This document shows positions 1,556-8,674 of a DNA stretch of 21,310 bases, one piece after another. Position numbers and translations under genes: made by a program. The notes beneath the pieces were generated by a model that saw nothing but the letters and a program-made list of their open reading frames with translations, did no database searches and had not been told where the DNA came from. Origin of the DNA: a virus; the IMG/VR virus record IMGVR_UViG_3300010430_000521, positions 1 to 21,310 of that record. One strand, written 5' to 3'. The first letter of the stretch is position 1. Every line of letters begins with the position of its first letter.

Positions 1556-2485
1556 GTGGCTGGTCGAGTTAAAAATGTATCTGACATCCGGCTTGATGTT
1601 GAGTTTGCCGAGGACTTTCGGACCCAGAAGATAATGAGAAAGTTCGGGGCCGAGGGAGCGTTGGGGTTGATCTTTCTTATGTGTTACTGCGCAAAGCATT
1701 ACCCCAGTGATTCCGGTTACTTTCCTAAGAACTTTGACGAGGAGGACCTGTTGTTCGCCTGTAAGGTTCAGCTGGACCGCACTGATTATGTTCAGATGCT
1801 GTTAGACCTTGAAATAATAGGTAAAGATAAAGACCGTTTCTTTATTTGTGAGTGGGACGATATGCAGCCTTGGGCCGCTGAAGCTCGGGCGCGGTCGGAG
1901 AAGGCCAAGAAAGCCGCTGCTGCGCGTTGGAAAAAGGATAAAAAACAGGATGATAAGGATAAAAAGAAAAGCTCGGACCAGTCTGAAGATAAGCCTGATG
2001 CCCAAGCAATGCAGGAGCATGAAAATGGCAATCCTAAAAATATGCCCGACGTCGATTTTAGCAATGCCCCTTCTCCTTCTCCTACTCACTACGTAAATAC
2101 CCCCTGTAGTCCCCCAGAGGGGGAAGAGTTGGTGGAGGCCTTTTGCGAAATTCTGCCCGACTTGCCGAAGCCGGAAGCTGTTACCGATTCCCTGATGAGG
2201 AAAGTCAGGAAATGCAGGTGCGAGGGTGGACCACCGGAGAAAGGGATCTTGTGGTGGCGTTGGTATTTTGGGCTGGTGAAGGATTACCCCTACCTGATGG
2301 GAGAAGTGAATCCGGAATGGAAAGCAAGTCTTCCATGGCTGGTGAAGCCGGATAACATCTCCAAGGTTTTGGGCAGTGGGTTTCAGAGTCGGGAAGAGAT
2401 GGAAGTGAACGAGTTAACTTCCAATTCCGGGCAGGGAATGAGTGAAGCAGAATATGAAGAACGTATTGCTGCTGGTGCAGGTTAA
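1556..2485 (+). CDS. Phage replication organizer-like protein
   Basis: This 309-aa protein resembles phage replisome-organizer or DnaD/O-type replication proteins. Residues about 15-110 look like the DUF4373-type N-terminal domain found in such proteins: a KFGAEGALGLIFLM helix, then a winged-helix-like stretch ending in FICEWDDMQ. An ARSEKAKKAAAARW motif follows, then a highly charged Lys/Asp linker (about 122-165). The C-terminal segment from about 195 contains ILWWRWYFGLVKDYPYLMGE and SLPWLVKPDNISKVLGSGF. That Trp-rich pattern is seen at the C-termini of phage replication proteins that recruit helicase. The start is GTG at 1556, preceded by AGGAG with a 6-nt gap. It is the first plus-strand gene after the hairpin region and may head the operon. 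The role is inferred from motif pattern only. Confidence 0.8.
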   Translation: MAGRVKNVSDIRLDVEFAEDFRTQKIMRKFGAEGALGLIFLMCYCAKHYPSDSGYFPKNFDEEDLLFACKVQLDRTDYVQMLLDLEIIGKDKDRFFICEWDDMQPWAAEARARSEKAKKAAAARWKKDKKQDDKDKKKSSDQSEDKPDAQAMQEHENGNPKNMPDVDFSNAPSPSPTHYVNTPCSPPEGEELVEAFCEILPDLPKPEAVTDSLMRKVRKCRCEGGPPEKGILWWRWYFGLVKDYPYLMGEVNPEWKASLPWLVKPDNISKVLGSGFQSREEMEVNELTSNSGQGMSEAEYEERIAAGAG

Positions 2486-2490
2486 GCGGA

Positions 2491-2504
2491 GGTTAATTTT
2501 AACC
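2491..2504. repeat. GGTTAA-TT-TTAACC palindrome
   Basis: A near-perfect palindrome lies just after the stop of the replication-like gene, in the 80-bp gap before the next CDS. It has no T-tract, so it does not look like a terminator. It could be an operator or protein-binding site. AAGTTA-type motifs follow at about 2524-2540. Confidence 0.35.
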
Positions 2505-2574
2505 ACGTTGAAATTAAGTTTTGAAGTTATAAAGTTAATGCAGTGTGAAAATATAACAGTGTGAGTTGATTGTT

Positions 2575-3186
2575 ATGCATGAAGAGTTGCAGAAACATCC
2601 TTCGTATAAGAGTGGAAAGATTGACCAAGAGATGTTAATTAAGCAGTTAGTTGAGCTTGGATGGAAACAAAGTGTATCTGCTGATTTCTTTGATGTATCT
2701 CAAGCAGCTGTTTCCAAGGCTAAAAAGCGTATTGATCTTGCTGTTTCCAAGGATGTTGCATTGTTCTCGGCTCCGAAGATGATTGATGCCAAGCTTTCAC
2801 TGGCTGATCAGCTCGAAGCTCTGGGGAAACAATGCCGCGAGTTGCTGGAGATGGTTCACGTTGTCCTTCATGGCGATCCGGCTTCGCAGGAGTACCGGGA
2901 CAGTCAATCAAAATTGCGGCGGCTGGCGGGCCAGAAACGCGATCTCGGCGGCTTCTTGATCCAGTTGCAGGCTGAACTTCGTAAGCAGCTCGAATTCGTC
3001 TTCAAGATGCAAAGCGAGATTTACTCGCTCAAGAAGGTTGAGGAATTTCAATCCATCGTTTTGGAGGAGATTCAAAACGCAGCACCTGAAGTTCAGCAGC
3101 GAATTGTCAGCCGGCTAACTGAAATTAATGCGGCTCGGTCGGCTTTGGATTTCGGAATCGGCGGTTCGGAAAAGTCTAACTTTTAA
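2575..3186 (+). CDS. Putative terminase small subunit (HTH plus coiled coil)
   Basis: About 203 aa from the ATG at 2575; a TTG at 2566 would add three residues but has no better ribosome-binding site (GTGAG at 2561-2565 suits the ATG). Near the N-terminus, WKQSVSADFFDVSQAAVSKAKKRI reads as a helix-turn-helix. The rest is a long amphipathic helical region with 'GGFLIQLQAELRKQLEF' and a C-terminal 'APEVQQRIVSRL' segment, a pattern I associate with small terminase subunits that recognise pac/cos DNA and oligomerise through helices. It precedes the recombinase and the large terminase, which fits. The last codons and the stop lie inside a direct repeat (3169-3185). An alternative is an unrelated DNA-binding regulator. 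CDS certain; function moderate. Confidence 0.85.
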   Translation: MHEELQKHPSYKSGKIDQEMLIKQLVELGWKQSVSADFFDVSQAAVSKAKKRIDLAVSKDVALFSAPKMIDAKLSLADQLEALGKQCRELLEMVHVVLHGDPASQEYRDSQSKLRRLAGQKRDLGGFLIQLQAELRKQLEFVFKMQSEIYSLKKVEEFQSIVLEEIQNAAPEVQQRIVSRLTEINAARSALDFGIGGSEKSNF

Positions 3187-3230
3187 TTTTTTGCAAACTC
3201 GAAAAGTCTAACTTTTACATTAAAGTTAGA
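3169..3230. repeat. Direct and inverted GTCTAACTTT repeats
   Basis: A 17-bp sequence, GAAAAGTCTAACTTTTA, occurs exactly twice, at 3169-3185 and 3201-3217. The second copy also forms a perfect 9-bp inverted repeat with 3222-3230 (TCTAACTTT, 6-nt loop, AAAGTTAGA). The first copy contains the end of the putative small terminase gene. Related TTAGAAAAGACT and ACTTAGACTTT strings occur further down the gap (about 3294-3355). The arrangement suggests binding sites for a regulator or recombinase, or part of a packaging/recombination site. No T-tract makes it a clear terminator. Confidence 0.6.
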
Positions 3231-3370
3231 GTCCTGAAAATGGTGTTTATGCTTTAAATTTCAGCTGTTTATTCGAATTTTGCTGAAAATTAGTTAGAAA
3301 AGACTCTTGTTAAAGTGTTGGTTTTATGAAAATATGATTAAAACTTAGACTTTAATAAAAGGAGCCGGAA

Positions 3371-3964
3371 ATGGAAAAAAAGAATCCGAATCATCCCGAA
3401 AAGGGAAGCAAGCTTAAGGTTGATCCGATCACTTCGCTGAAGGACATTGCGAATCTGAAAAAGCTGCTTGAAGACAATCCGCGCGATCTGGCTTTGTTCG
3501 TTCTGGGGATCAACACCAATCTCCGCGCCATTGATCTGGTCCAGATTGAGGCCGAACAGTTCATCCATGCCAAAGCCGGTGACGAGCTGGTGCTTGAAGA
3601 GCAGAAGACAGCCAAGGGTCGCCGGATCACCCTGAATGAGACTGTCATCAAGGCTGTGCGTCCTTGGGCGGTGCAGTGCCGGGACGAGGAACGGATTTTC
3701 CTTTTTACGGGCAGGAACGGCGGCCATATGGCTCCGAACTACGTCAACAAGCTGGTCAAGAAGTGGTGCGAGAAAATCAATTTGAAGGGGCAATACGGCT
3801 CTCATACGTTGCGGAAAACATTCGGCTATCACCAGCGGGTAACATTCGGTGTGGATATCCCGACCTTGATGGAAATTTTTAATCACTCCAGCCAGAAGCA
3901 GACCCTTGATTACCTGTGCGTCCAGCCTGAGGAAATCAAGGATGTGTACATGAATGCATTATGA
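3371..3964 (+). CDS. Short tyrosine recombinase (catalytic domain only)
   Basis: This 197-aa protein carries the full catalytic set of tyrosine site-specific recombinases: Arg52 (TNLRAIDL), Lys79 or Lys82 (EQKTAKGRR), His145 and Arg148 (SHTLRK), His172 (NHSS) and nucleophile Tyr181 (LDYLCV). It lacks the N-terminal core-binding/SAM-like domain of normal phage integrases (usually 300-400 aa), so it is a catalytic-domain-only form. The start follows AAAAGGAG with an 8-nt gap. Its stop overlaps the terminase start in ATGA (3961-3964), so the two are translationally coupled. That placement inside the packaging operon is unlike an integrase beside attP and suggests a late role such as resolution of DNA or processing of packaging substrates. 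Being the phage integrase remains possible. Confidence 0.9.
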   Translation: MEKKNPNHPEKGSKLKVDPITSLKDIANLKKLLEDNPRDLALFVLGINTNLRAIDLVQIEAEQFIHAKAGDELVLEEQKTAKGRRITLNETVIKAVRPWAVQCRDEERIFLFTGRNGGHMAPNYVNKLVKKWCEKINLKGQYGSHTLRKTFGYHQRVTFGVDIPTLMEIFNHSSQKQTLDYLCVQPEEIKDVYMNAL

Positions 3965-5433
3965 GTAAATCGTTGAAAGCAAAAGGCTTGATGGGGAATC
4001 TGCTCATGAATTTGAAGGAGCAGGTTCCACAGGCTGAATCTCAGTACATCGGCACTGGGAAGCCTGATATGCCGCTGAAAGAGTTCATCCGCAATGCATG
4101 GCACGTTATCGAGCCGGGGCGGACCTTTATTGACGGCTGGCATATCGGGGCCATTGTGGAGCATCTGGAGGCGGTCAGTACCGGGGAGATTTCAAGGCTG
4201 CTGATCAATATGCCGCCTCGCCACATGAAGTCGCTGTCCGTGTCAGTCTGCTGGCCGGCTTGGGAATGGACCTTCAATCCGTGGATTCAATTTTTCTTCA
4301 GCTCCTATTCGGCCATGCTTTCAACGCGAGACAATATGAAGACCCGTGAGATCGTGACTTCGCCCTGGTATCAGGAAGCATGGCCTCATGTGCAGCTCAA
4401 GCGGGACCAGAACGCCAAGGACAAGTTTGAAAACAAGGCCGGGGGCTTCCGCTTTTCCTCATCTGTCGGCGGCAGGGCGACAGGTGAAGGCGGGGACCGC
4501 ATAGTAGCTGATGACCCCCACAACATGTCCGAGGTCAATTCTGATGCCAAGCGTAAGGAAGTGCTGGATTGGTGGGACAACACCATGCAGACCCGTCTCA
4601 ATGATCCCAAGACCGGGGCTTTCGTAGTTGTTATGCAGCGCGGCCACCAGCAGGATCTGAGCGGCCATATTCTGGAGAAGGGCGGTTATACCCATCTCTG
4701 CTTGCCGGCACGGTACGAGGGTAACAAGTTCCATACGGTACTGGGTTTCGAAGATCCCCGTGAAGAGGAAGGGCAGCTGCTCTGGCCGGAACGTTTTGAC
4801 GAGGAAACCCTGACTCATATTGAAAATTCTTTCTCTTCACCTACTGAGGCCGCAGGGCAGCTCCAGCAGCGTCCGGTTCCAAAGGGCGGGGCAATCTTTC
4901 AGGTGGACTGGTTCAAGCGGTATACCAAGCTTCCCAAATTCAACCGCATTGTCGAGCACTGGGACACGGCCCAGAAGAAGAATGCCAATGCCGCTTATTC
5001 GGTAGGGCAGCTCTGGGGCGAGGCCTACAACGGCTACTACCTGCTGGATCTGATCCGTAAGAAGATGGAGTACCCGGAGCTGAAGCGCACAATTAAAAGG
5101 CGGTACGCGATTCACAAGGCCTCCGCGATCGTAATTGAGGACAAGTCCAGCGGGATCAGCGTTATTCAGGATTTGCAGGACGAAACCAAGCTCCCGGTCG
5201 TGCCTTGGGCAGTGACCGGGGGCGATAAGGAAAACAGGGCCAATGCGGTAGCCGATACGATCGAGGGCGGCAATGTCTGGTTGCCAGAGTCCGCTGAGTG
5301 GCTGGATGTCTTTCTGGATGAGGTAGAGCACTTTCCCGGCTCCAAATACAAGGATCAGGTGGATGTGATGACGCAGGCCTTGGAATATTTTCTCAGAAGG
5401 GGCGGCTTAACTGAAGGCCGCGACATGTCTTAG
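3961..5433 (+). CDS. terL: Terminase large subunit
   Basis: The 490-aa protein is the ATP-driven DNA-packaging motor with a headful/cos-type nuclease. A Walker A-like loop is NMPPRHMKS (about 83-91), Walker B is RIVADDP (180-186), and FVVVMQRGHQQD (221-232) is the coupling region. The C-terminal nuclease shows EHWDTA (Asp335), VIEDKSSG (Glu393/Asp394) and KYKDQVDVM (Asp465/Asp468), the acidic metal-binding set of the RNase H-like domain. Length is normal for the family. The start overlaps the recombinase stop (ATGA) and lacks a strong ribosome-binding site, so coupling is likely. It should act at the portal vertex with the protein encoded at 10293. Confidence 0.95.
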   Translation: MSKSLKAKGLMGNLLMNLKEQVPQAESQYIGTGKPDMPLKEFIRNAWHVIEPGRTFIDGWHIGAIVEHLEAVSTGEISRLLINMPPRHMKSLSVSVCWPAWEWTFNPWIQFFFSSYSAMLSTRDNMKTREIVTSPWYQEAWPHVQLKRDQNAKDKFENKAGGFRFSSSVGGRATGEGGDRIVADDPHNMSEVNSDAKRKEVLDWWDNTMQTRLNDPKTGAFVVVMQRGHQQDLSGHILEKGGYTHLCLPARYEGNKFHTVLGFEDPREEEGQLLWPERFDEETLTHIENSFSSPTEAAGQLQQRPVPKGGAIFQVDWFKRYTKLPKFNRIVEHWDTAQKKNANAAYSVGQLWGEAYNGYYLLDLIRKKMEYPELKRTIKRRYAIHKASAIVIEDKSSGISVIQDLQDETKLPVVPWAVTGGDKENRANAVADTIEGGNVWLPESAEWLDVFLDEVEHFPGSKYKDQVDVMTQALEYFLRRGGLTEGRDMS

Positions 5434-6097: not shown

Positions 6098-6295
6098 ATG
6101 GTGGTGCGGCCTGTTGAGATTGTTACGGGTTTAGAGAACATCGGAAGGATTTTCGGAGTAGGGCGCAACACCGTCCGCGCTTGGGCGCAGAAGGAAGGTT
6201 GCCCTATCCGCCGTGTTGAGGGGAAGTACACAGCGGAGAAGGCTGAGCTTTGGGAGTGGGTTAAGGAGTATGCTGGTGGGGAGGTTGGGTGCTAG
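6098..6295 (+). CDS. Small helix-turn-helix DNA-binding protein
   Basis: A 65-aa protein beginning MVVRPVEIVTGLENIGRIF. The segment GLENIGRIFGVGRNTVRAWA (about 11-30) is a clear helix-turn-helix, followed by a wing-like stretch (CPIRRVEGKYTAEKAELWEW) as in excisionase/MerR-like or Nu1-type terminase DNA-binding domains. The start at 6098 is chosen because GGGGGG precedes it by 7 nt and the gene upstream ends at 6096; the frame is open further upstream but there overlaps that gene. Its stop overlaps that of the opposing pentapeptide gene in CTAG (6292-6295). It could be a terminase accessory, excisionase or regulator of the neighbouring cargo. A degenerate copy of its 3' half occurs at about 7390-7434. 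Confidence 0.82.
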   Translation: MVVRPVEIVTGLENIGRIFGVGRNTVRAWAQKEGCPIRRVEGKYTAEKAELWEWVKEYAGGEVGC

Positions 6296-7350
6296 TTTTC
6301 ATAGGGTGCTTCGTACTTCCAGAATTTTTCGTGGTACCAATCTGGTTTTATGAATAAATGAGGGTGGGTTTTTCTGAGTTCTTTTTCTATTCTGGCTGGA
6401 ATTTTGGCTTTGTAAAGATTTTTAGAGTCAGCGAGATTAACATTTTTGAGTTTTGTCCTTGTAAAGTCCGCTCCAGTAAGTTTCGCTCCAGTAAGTTTCG
6501 CTCCAGTAAGGTCCGCTCCAGTAAGTTTCGCTCCAGTAAGGTCCGCTCCAGTAAGGTCCGCTCCAGTAAGGTTCGCTCTACGAAAGTAAGTTTCTAAAAG
6601 GTTGCCCCCTGAAAGATCAGCCCTTGAAAGATCGGCATTTTCAAAGAAGGCATCTACAAGATAGGCTCTTGAAAGATTGGCTTCCAAGAGACGAGCTCTA
6701 GAAAAGTCTGCCCCTGAAATGAGGGCCCCTGAAAGGTCGGCCCTTGAAAGGTTGACTCTTGAAAGGAAGGCGTTTGCAAGGAAGGTTCCTACAAGATTGG
6801 CCCCAGTGAGGTTCGCCGATTCAAGGTCGGCTTTAAAAAGGTCTGCTCCTGAAAGGTTCGCTAAGGATAGATTGCATTCTCTTAGAGTGTTTTTGTATGT
6901 TTCGATTGTGCTAACGAGCATACGTTGTCCAGTCTTGTAGTGCTCGTTATAAAAAAGAGAGTAAAATGTGTGCCAGAATCGTAGTAAATCTGTGTTGTGT
7001 GGAACTTTATTCTCTTGGATATTGTGTAGATTAGCGCACGCTATATGTCTATATCCTGTAGCCATCTGTGTTTGAAATGTAGCTATTTGCATTTCGTAGG
7101 AGCTAGTAGCTCGCTCATACCTATTTGAAGCAATCCCAAATATTATAAAATAGACACTGATAGCCCACGGTACAAAGCTACTAGGTTTCACATACTCGTC
7201 TGCATTCAGCACAGCATTGCTGGGTGGGAATATTTTTTCAACAACAAGACGTACCCCTGAGTAGTGGTATAGACAGTAAAATGGTCTTGGTGAGTTCCAG
7301 ATCAGGATCAGGATTATGATTCCTATGTGGGATGTGATGTATGCTTCCAT
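6292..7350 (-). CDS. Membrane-anchored pentapeptide-repeat protein A (LTGAD-rich)
   Basis: 352 aa from the ATG at 7348-7350; the frame is open upstream to 7509, but alignment with its paralog (METKDWIILSIT...) supports this start ([12 protein letters not shown]...). TM segments lie at about 5-18 and 59-75, with a charged segment between them ([18 protein letters not shown]). A helical stretch (85-155) contains [12 protein letters not shown] and [14 protein letters not shown]. Pentapeptide repeats fill about 159-320 (NLSGADL, NLTGANL, then [10 protein letters not shown]), ending in a short charged tail. The predicted form is a beta-helix held at the membrane. No Shine-Dalgarno sequence is seen, only an AT-rich leader. 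It lies 31 bases after the paralog's stop on the same strand, so the two are probably one operon. It is AT-rich and opposes the phage genes. The function is not recognised; exclusion, immunity or lysogenic conversion are possibilities. Confidence 0.9.
6466..6570. repeat. 15-bp coding minisatellite (7 units)
   Basis: Seven consecutive 15-bp units share the core CGCTCCAGTAAG and differ only in the first three bases (GTC or TTT), at 6466, 6481, 6496, 6511, 6526, 6541 and 6556. Read on the minus strand they encode LTGAD or LTGAK pentapeptides. Degenerate units continue to about 6600. Near identity at DNA level points to recent slippage or unequal exchange, and any change in copy number keeps the reading frame. 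Confidence 0.95.
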
Positions 7351-7381
7351 GAAAAATATGTTTATCTGATTGTTTTTGAAA

Positions 7382-8674
7382 TCACAATGCACCGTCCGCG
7401 TCTGGCGCAGAAGGCTGGGCTTTGGGAGTGGGGTAATGATAGGCCCAAGGGAGAGGAGGGATGTCAAGTTCTGGTGCATAAGTTTTGACATCAGACCATA
7501 GATGTTCAAGTTTTGTTTTAAAGGATTGCTGTGGATCTTTGAATAGTTCTGGTTTTAGTCTTCTGAGAATTGTTTCAACTGGTGCTGGGAGTTTGGTTGC
7601 AGTCAATTCATGCGCATATAGTAAACTATTAACCATGTTTTCTGTATTATTAGTAGAGCCAGTATAAGTTTCTGTGAATGTCGCATTGCGCATGTCTGAA
7701 AATATAATTGTTGCATTGTCCAACATTGGTGAGATAAAATTTGTGTTTTTAAAGTCTGAGTGTATTGCAATTGTGTTGAAGAACATTGTATCTTCAAGTG
7801 TGGAATTGTAAAAAGAGGTGCCAGTTAAAACTGAGTCACTGAAGTTACACGTTTTTATGTGTGAGTTTGAGAAACTTGATTTGGATATCGAGGAATTATT
7901 AAAATTTGTTGAGTCAATATGTAAGTTGTTTAATGAAGAATTATAAATATTTGTGCTTGTTAATGTTGCTATGTGTATGCTTGTTTTTTTAAATTCTGTA
8001 TTGTATATTTCGCTTTTGCTGAAGTCTGTGCAGGTTAAATATGCATTGCTAAAGTCAACATTGTCAATTTTACTATTTTTTAAGTTTGCTTTGTATAAAT
8101 TTGAATTTTGCAAGTGAACATTATCAATGACGCAACTATTTAAATTGGCGTTGTTCAAATCTATATTTGGTAATTTAATACTCTTAAACTGAGCATTAGA
8201 AAGCCCCTTTTTGTATGCCTGTAGTGTTTGAATGATCGTATTTTCACCTTCTTTATATTTACCTTGTACAAAGAGAGACATTATCGTGTCCCAAAAAAGT
8301 AATATTTCTGCTTTAGGTGGGACTTTGTTTTTTTGAATGCTAGTCAGGTTTGCACAAGCTTGAGCTCTAAAACTAGTAGACATCTGAGTTTGCCATGCAG
8401 CAATTTGCATTTCATATAAGTTTACAGCTCGGTCATATCTGGCTGATGCTATGCTGAATATTGCTACGTAAATGCTTATCGTCCATAATATGAATGTGCT
8501 CGGTTTGCGAAAGTTTTCTTTTTGTTCAGTTGGTGGATGTAGTTTTTCAAAAATTGCTCTCAGGCCAGAATAGTTGTAAAAGAAATAGTATGTTCTTGGG
8601 AGTTTGTGATAGAGATAAATGAAAGTTGGGATTAATATTGTGATGCTTAAGATTATCCAGTCTTTAGTTTCCAT
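7382..8674 (-). CDS. Membrane-anchored pentapeptide-repeat protein B (Ser/Asn-rich)
   Basis: A 430-aa paralog of the gene downstream. The N-terminal module aligns throughout: TM1 about 6-22, SGLRAIFEKLHPP, TM2 about 61-77 (FILWTISIYVAIFSIAS), RYDRAVNLYEMQIAAWQTQM, ACANLTSIQKNKVPPKAEILLFWDTI. The repeat domain (about 160-355) keeps pentapeptide spacing but is Asn/Ser/Thr-rich and non-canonical (LNNANLNSCVI, FSNSHIKTCNF), unlike the LTGAD repeats of protein A. The C-terminus (VKTYAPELDIPPLPW, then a Pro/Ala-rich tail) runs antisense over a relic of the helix-turn-helix gene. The start has AAGGA with an 8-nt gap, and a TATAAT box lies about 46 bases upstream. It is strongly AT-rich relative to the phage operon. 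Function unknown. Confidence 0.92.
   Translation of the reverse strand: METKDWIILSITILIPTFIYLYHKLPRTYYFFYNYSGLRAIFEKLHPPTEQKENFRKPSTFILWTISIYVAIFSIASARYDRAVNLYEMQIAAWQTQMSTSFRAQACANLTSIQKNKVPPKAEILLFWDTIMSLFVQGKYKEGENTIIQTLQAYKKGLSNAQFKSIKLPNIDLNNANLNSCVIDNVHLQNSNLYKANLKNSKIDNVDFSNAYLTCTDFSKSEIYNTEFKKTSIHIATLTSTNIYNSSLNNLHIDSTNFNNSSISKSSFSNSHIKTCNFSDSVLTGTSFYNSTLEDTMFFNTIAIHSDFKNTNFISPMLDNATIIFSDMRNATFTETYTGSTNNTENMVNSLLYAHELTATKLPAPVETILRRLKPELFKDPQQSFKTKLEHLWSDVKTYAPELDIPPLPWAYHYPTPKAQPSAPDADGAL
7390..7434 (+). pseudogene. Relic of the 65-aa HTH gene
   Basis: The plus-strand sequence here matches the 3' half of the gene at 6098-6295. ACCGTCCGCG equals 6170-6179, GGCGCAGAAGG equals 6184-6194, and CTGGGCTTTGGGAGTGGG matches CTGAGCTTTGGGAGTGGG at 6243-6260. 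A 48-bp block (6195-6242) is missing, bounded in the intact gene by AGAAGG at 6189-6194 and 6237-6242, which is the expected product of deletion between short direct repeats. A one-base loss near 7400 also shifts the frame. The relic lies inside the antisense 3' end of pentapeptide gene B. Confidence 0.8.

Follow-up and report, generated by a model that had tools for sequence, protein, structure and literature searches.

What does a tyrosine recombinase that is reduced to its catalytic domain do when its gene overlaps the gene for the large terminase subunit of a phage? The question is raised by a locus in a virus record of 21,310 bases, classed as linear and perhaps a fragment, the whole of which was analyzed here and is called the window below. 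The recombinase gene (3371-3964, + strand) codes for a protein of 197 residues that is assigned to PF00589 and phrog_216. Its residues 35-185 match the PF00589 profile (1.2e-19; 71.2 bits against a curated Pfam cut-off of 27.1), and this score together with the R-K-H-R-H-Y catalytic set places it in the tyrosine recombinase/phage integrase family. A preliminary description of the DNA had named R52, K79, K82, H145, R148, H172 and Y181 as the catalytic residues, and all seven occupy these positions: R52, K79, H145, R148, H172 and Y181, as well as K149, are the same in all 25 aligned relatives, among which K82 is nearly invariant. That description had also noted the lack of the N-terminal core-binding domain, and the AlphaFold2 model (mean pLDDT 87.6, pTM 0.83) indeed comprises the catalytic domain and, ahead of it, some 20 residues of low confidence. 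In much of the clade to which the window protein belongs, a conserved NPNHPxxGS-like segment in the N-terminal tail takes the place of the core-binding domain. XerA is the closest solved structure to the model (Z 19.0, rmsd 3.1, 179 aligned residues), followed by Cre and XerH (Z ~16), with YopR/MrpR also among the matches (Z ~12.5). The scores against the NCBIfam equivalog profiles of XerA, XerC and XerD stay below their cut-offs (62.5/220, 59.8/335 and 43.2/330 bits, respectively). Comparison with the copy in L003, the closest diverged relative, whose recombinase protein is 71% identical, points to purifying selection on the gene (dN 0.19, dS 1.29, the latter near saturation).

The stop codon of the recombinase gene and the start codon of terL (3961-5433, + strand; phrog_38 2.5e-98; Terminase_6C) overlap as ATGA at 3961-3964, an arrangement that had been reported for the window and that recurs at 4234-4237 in the diverged L003. 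Further upstream on the same strand lie a gene for a phage replication initiation or DnaD-like helicase-loader protein (1556-2485) and an ORF of 206 codons (2566-3186), the product of which is predicted to be helical with a possible HTH. We consider the latter a candidate small terminase or regulator. The former option is suspected because an annotated small terminase directly overlaps terL in four of four TerL relatives examined. The ORF product showed no match in Pfam, among PDB sequences or among phages, and none in a profile comparison with four small terminases; there is a weak match to a PHROG regulator, and its model is poor (pLDDT 50.9), with no significant PDB fold match. Several pentapeptide-repeat protein genes, probably cargo, are interspersed with the phage genes on the opposite strand (1-1330, 6292-7509 and 7382-8674, all -); the first of these is complete in L002, a record of the same phage, and was identified by eye. 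Position 1 of L002 and position 23185 of the 23-kb relative G001, where these two records end, coincide exactly with the start codon of one and the same dnaB-like gene, which suggests that both were trimmed at gene boundaries and that neighboring genes are missing from them. An Rfam search gave no match.

A core-like inverted repeat upstream of the gene

The repeats that the preliminary description had placed just upstream, at 3169-3230, are real and contain a conserved inverted repeat at 3205-3232, which reads AGTCTAACTTT-TACATT-AAAGTTAGAGT and is centered at -152 from the start codon. Its inner arms are perfect over 9 bp (3207-3215 and 3222-3230), extend to 11 bp with one mismatch, and enclose a 6-bp spacer (3216-3221). 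To judge from its sequence, this element is built like the crossover site of a tyrosine recombinase, and the gene would thus possess a putative palindromic core of its own beside it, as in systems of the Cre/lox type.

A version with two mismatches occupies the same place in L003. More generally, a comparable inverted repeat lies between -129 and -156 in 8 of 19 loci of the clade, a range delimited post hoc. Over these 19 loci the best repeat score in the zone from -165 to -125, likewise chosen after the data had been inspected, averages 6.63 against 3.98 (sd 0.27) under a Markov null; the repeat is clear in eight of them and no clear one lies in that zone in the other 11. There is no clear site at -150 in L072, L075, L076, L077, L079, L081, L083, L084 and L086, and that in L184 is weak; L073 and L074 present a possible site at about -549. 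Six of ten re-examined clade loci have no strong repeat within 1.5 kb on either side. We also used the repeat as a prediction for unseen loci: of six further plasmid loci that were fetched, five belong to the clade of the window, and all five have it (mean score 11.9 against 3.8, sd 0.41), with centers at -153, -152, -139.5, -138.5 and -140.5. These five represent three independent lineages, the three Acaryochloris copies being near-identical in protein sequence.

The conservation extends to the arms themselves. The inner pair AACTTT-N6-AAAGTT is found exactly in the window, in a gammaproteobacterial MAG contig (L040, at -147), on the Spartinivicinus plasmid pC (at -145) and on two cyanobacterial plasmids, and with one mismatch in L078, L080 and L085; a repeat of related sequence is located at -148 on pDCAR5. 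In most records there is only one complete core per locus. The exact longer pattern CTAACTTT-N6-AAAGTTAG was tried as a detector of the recombinase and rejected: it occurs at 35 viral loci, and a recombinase accompanies it only in L002, from the same phage. The exact site sequence alone is not diagnostic, because 34 of the 35 loci are devoid of the recombinase. On the Spartinivicinus ruber plasmid pC (L185), three core-like sites that differ in their spacers are spread over less than 8 kb (67986, 71049 and 75898), an array that fits poorly with a single resolution site and is reminiscent of pdif-type modules. In the open-access literature, which was covered by several narrow searches, we recognized no paper describing the core-like site together with the recombinase.

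Plasmid and phage relatives and the integrase question

The nearest named relatives of the window recombinase are plasmid-borne, the best being a protein with 52% identity on pDCAR5, and 984 of 72,556 plasmid records match it at 1e-6, a number to which other tyrosine recombinases may contribute. In the phylogenetic tree, plasmid and phage copies are interleaved: L073, and then pDCAR5 with L078, adjoin the window pair, at supports of 0.81-0.93. A parA gene lies near the recombinase gene on pDCAR5, where one small gene separates them, in L040 and in G021, a virus record of 90,778 bases with terL elsewhere in the record. Among the 32 other records that were searched for ParA, five have a match; the close relatives G001 and G013, perhaps fragments, have none. 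On a 27.9-kb Acaryochloris plasmid (L230) two short recombinase genes are arranged divergently (1557-2126 and 2480-3046).

The pairing of the recombinase with terL, which the preliminary description had emphasized, is of limited reach: the ATGA overlap is kept in L003, but adjacency to a terminase is not universal, and plasmid relatives have the module without a terminase. When selected ORFs were scanned, terminase genes were detected within about 4 kb in L003, L042 (a weak small-terminase match), L043, L072, L074, L075 and L077, and none among the ORFs selected in L076, L078, L080, L081, L084 and L085. The gene order in L074 is recombinase, terL and portal, and its TerL has no significant alignment to that of the window.

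These relatives also bear on another explanation, namely that the recombinase is simply the integrase of this phage and the inverted repeat at 3205-3232 its attP. An attP-like core does adjoin the gene, and neither the window nor G001 encodes a further PF00589 protein, but both of these records are perhaps fragments. A separate full-length integrase is present in the relatives G016 (that is, L074, with a recombinase ~56% identical to that of the window), G025 (L085) and G017, and a repeat of this kind is kept at the corresponding place in plasmid relatives. Across the 23 viral records searched, a frame of 353-372 codons occurs besides the short one in five (G016, G017, G025, G033 and G034), and no such frame was found in the other 18, many of which are short fragments; in six of six named, more distant phages there is a second, full-length PF00589 frame of 336-412 codons. 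As far as gene content can tell, the relatives argue against an integrase function for the window protein, and we regard this explanation as unlikely.

Half-site copies and a predicted operator

The left half-site motif of the core, AAAGTCTAACTTT, recurs outside it. It is exact at 3203 and at 3171-3183 (+ strand), the latter copy lying within the 3' end of the upstream ORF with the same spacing in L003, and it is found inverted with one mismatch at 3341-3353 (- strand), just upstream of the ribosome-binding site. The window contains no further copy with up to two mismatches, and in G001 the sole copies of the motif keep the same spacings of 32 and 138 bp. With up to one mismatch allowed, the half-site of the locus itself recurs between -60 and -14 in five of nine loci (the window, L071, L080, L085 and pDCAR5), against a null mean of 0.07 and none of 1000 draws reaching five. 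By eye, the start-side copy reads AAGTT against AACTT in the core in the window and the cyanobacterial plasmids; it is exact in L071. A promoter scan of the recombinase start gave no consensus overlapping the operator-like copy, and we do not claim a candidate seen by eye, which has a 20-bp spacer.

The recombinase probably represses its own operon through the half-site at 3341-3353, its predicted operator, because this conserved half-site adjoins the start of the gene itself. The conserved copy suggests, in turn, that the protein controls its own operon rather than simply following terL, as the overlap of the two genes had earlier been taken to mean.

Repression could even be the sole role of the protein, which would then be a recombinase-derived DNA-binding regulator of the recombinase-terL operon. 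The half-sites at the gene start in five of nine loci agree with this, and MrpR of the phage SPbeta, to which the model shows the structural match mentioned above, is a precedent for the same fold serving as a repressor (PMC10516654). MrpR is without most of the catalytic residues (PMC10516654), but all of them are invariant in the window family, which is thus not a catalytically dead repressor of the MrpR type. Furthermore, a repeat with a 6-bp spacer and arms of 9-14 bp would be unnecessary for simple repression, and we judge a purely regulatory role to be quite improbable.

The inverted copies at 3203 and 3341 also call to mind a fim-like switch, in which the promoter segment between them would be flipped. 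They flank the intergenic region at a spacing of 138 bp that is conserved in two phages, and the protein has the size of a Fim recombinase, but most records have only one complete core per locus, the start-side copy differs from the core in other loci, and the segment has a single orientation in the three copies compared (the window, L002 and L003), so that such inversion appears highly unlikely. Equally improbable is that the repeats are cos or pac sites recognized by the terminase and unrelated to the recombinase: they do sit in the interval from the replication block to terL, a common location of packaging sites and small-terminase genes, and the annotated cos of phage SM1 is ~700 bp from such a recombinase, but the same kind of repeat is found at the same distance from the gene on plasmids with no terminase match or nearby terminase annotation.

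A candidate resolution module and its known counterparts

The account that we favor, with some reserve, is that the locus represents a Cre/Xer-like resolution or circularization module of plasmid type, captured beside the terminase and probably autoregulated. A pair of recombinase monomers would occupy the inverted repeat at 3205-3232; two such sites, in dimers, in concatemers or at both ends of a terminally redundant genome, would be brought together and exchanged to yield monomeric circles. The additional half-site beside the start (3341-3353) would allow the protein to repress its own operon, terL included. In evolutionary terms, a plasmid-type multimer-resolution system may have been taken up by phages, in this case at a position flanked by the replication block and the large terminase. 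If the phage packages by headful, the position of the site beside the packaging locus would place it within the terminal redundancy; P1, a headful phage, has lox near pac, within its terminal redundancy. Binding, recombination, autoregulation and the outcome, be it resolution or circularization, are what we infer for the module. The preliminary description had proposed that the protein resolves or circularizes DNA by acting on the upstream repeats and is not an integrase; this proposal stands in part, favored by the conserved core-like site at those repeats, the plasmid-borne and ParA-linked relatives and the separate full-length integrase in relatives.

Against the resolution module stand several observations: neither a recombination product nor a substrate with two sites was observed, the repeat is unclear in 11 of the 19 clade loci, the close relatives G001 and G013 lack a ParA match, the window lacks a second integrase, and recombinases of the catalytic domain only are without the usual clamp. 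A stronger version, in which the clamp-less recombinase works on its own core (in relatives, the arms reach up to 14 bp) and also represses the terL operon via the slightly altered half-site at its start, is a tentative proposal with a rather small chance of being right. If true, one small protein would tie unit-genome formation to the onset of packaging, and the module that it employs would also serve the maintenance of plasmids. Such genes are widespread both on plasmids and in phages, and their usual label is integrase; with a core site defined and an operator predicted beside them, this vague label becomes a testable resolution module, and phage packaging loci are linked to plasmid maintenance. 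A further question is how arms of up to 14 bp would be recognized by a recombinase without a clamp.

Among known systems, Cre/loxP of P1 offers the parallel of a single tyrosine recombinase, encoded by a phage and provided with a palindromic core of its own, and of a related fold (Z ~16); in some relatives of the window recombinase, partition genes lie near the gene. It differs in that the window protein, as modeled, has the catalytic domain only and not the two-domain clamp of core-binding and catalytic domains, that its gene adjoins terL, and that its site has a spacer of 6 bp, as opposed to 8 bp in lox. The Xer/dif systems (XerA, XerH and XerCD) share the 6-bp spacer between the arms, as in dif, and XerA has the closest fold (Z 19.0), but the window protein is far below the Xer cut-offs (62.5 against 220 bits) and about two thirds the size, and its site adjoins the gene.

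The short late-region 'integrases' of Streptococcus phages (SM1, SpSL1 and Javan) have the same size and catalytic signature, lie near HNH/terminase or portal genes and have an inverted repeat near the gene; they differ in the location of this repeat, ~100-150 bp downstream of the gene, and show ~30-35% identity. In the loci of this type (L103-L182), the repeat downstream of the short recombinase combines a constant center, ATATAAGA, with covarying arms. Of 86 loci, 56 have it within 700 bp (35 distinct sequences, many of them from nearly the same phage), and its arm symmetry is 0.71 at the true center against 0.12-0.36 elsewhere. In SM1 it lies ~106 bp after the gene, and the annotated cos ~700 bp after the gene.

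The gp50 protein of Tyrovirus, a late-gene tyrosine recombinase of function unknown to its authors, likewise has, adjacent to its gene, a repeat in which two arms of 11 bp enclose a 6-bp core, but it possesses an N-terminal integrase domain, is encoded between neck and tape measure genes, and has the repeat downstream (PMC9703825). Famint3 is a mixed phage, prophage and plasmid family with the motif RK-Y (HTLRKT in the window protein), for which plasmid multimer resolution was suggested; we liken it by description, and in the excerpts of its source it is restricted to Firmicutes and no crossover site is described (PMC3414803). MrpR (YopR) resembles the window protein in being a phage-borne, DNA-binding protein of the tyrosine-recombinase fold and differs in its lost catalytic residues, its core-binding domain and its role as a repressor (PMC10516654). 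Finally, most circular plasmid prophages carry Xer-like recombinases, which are thought to resolve dimers (PMC8026635).
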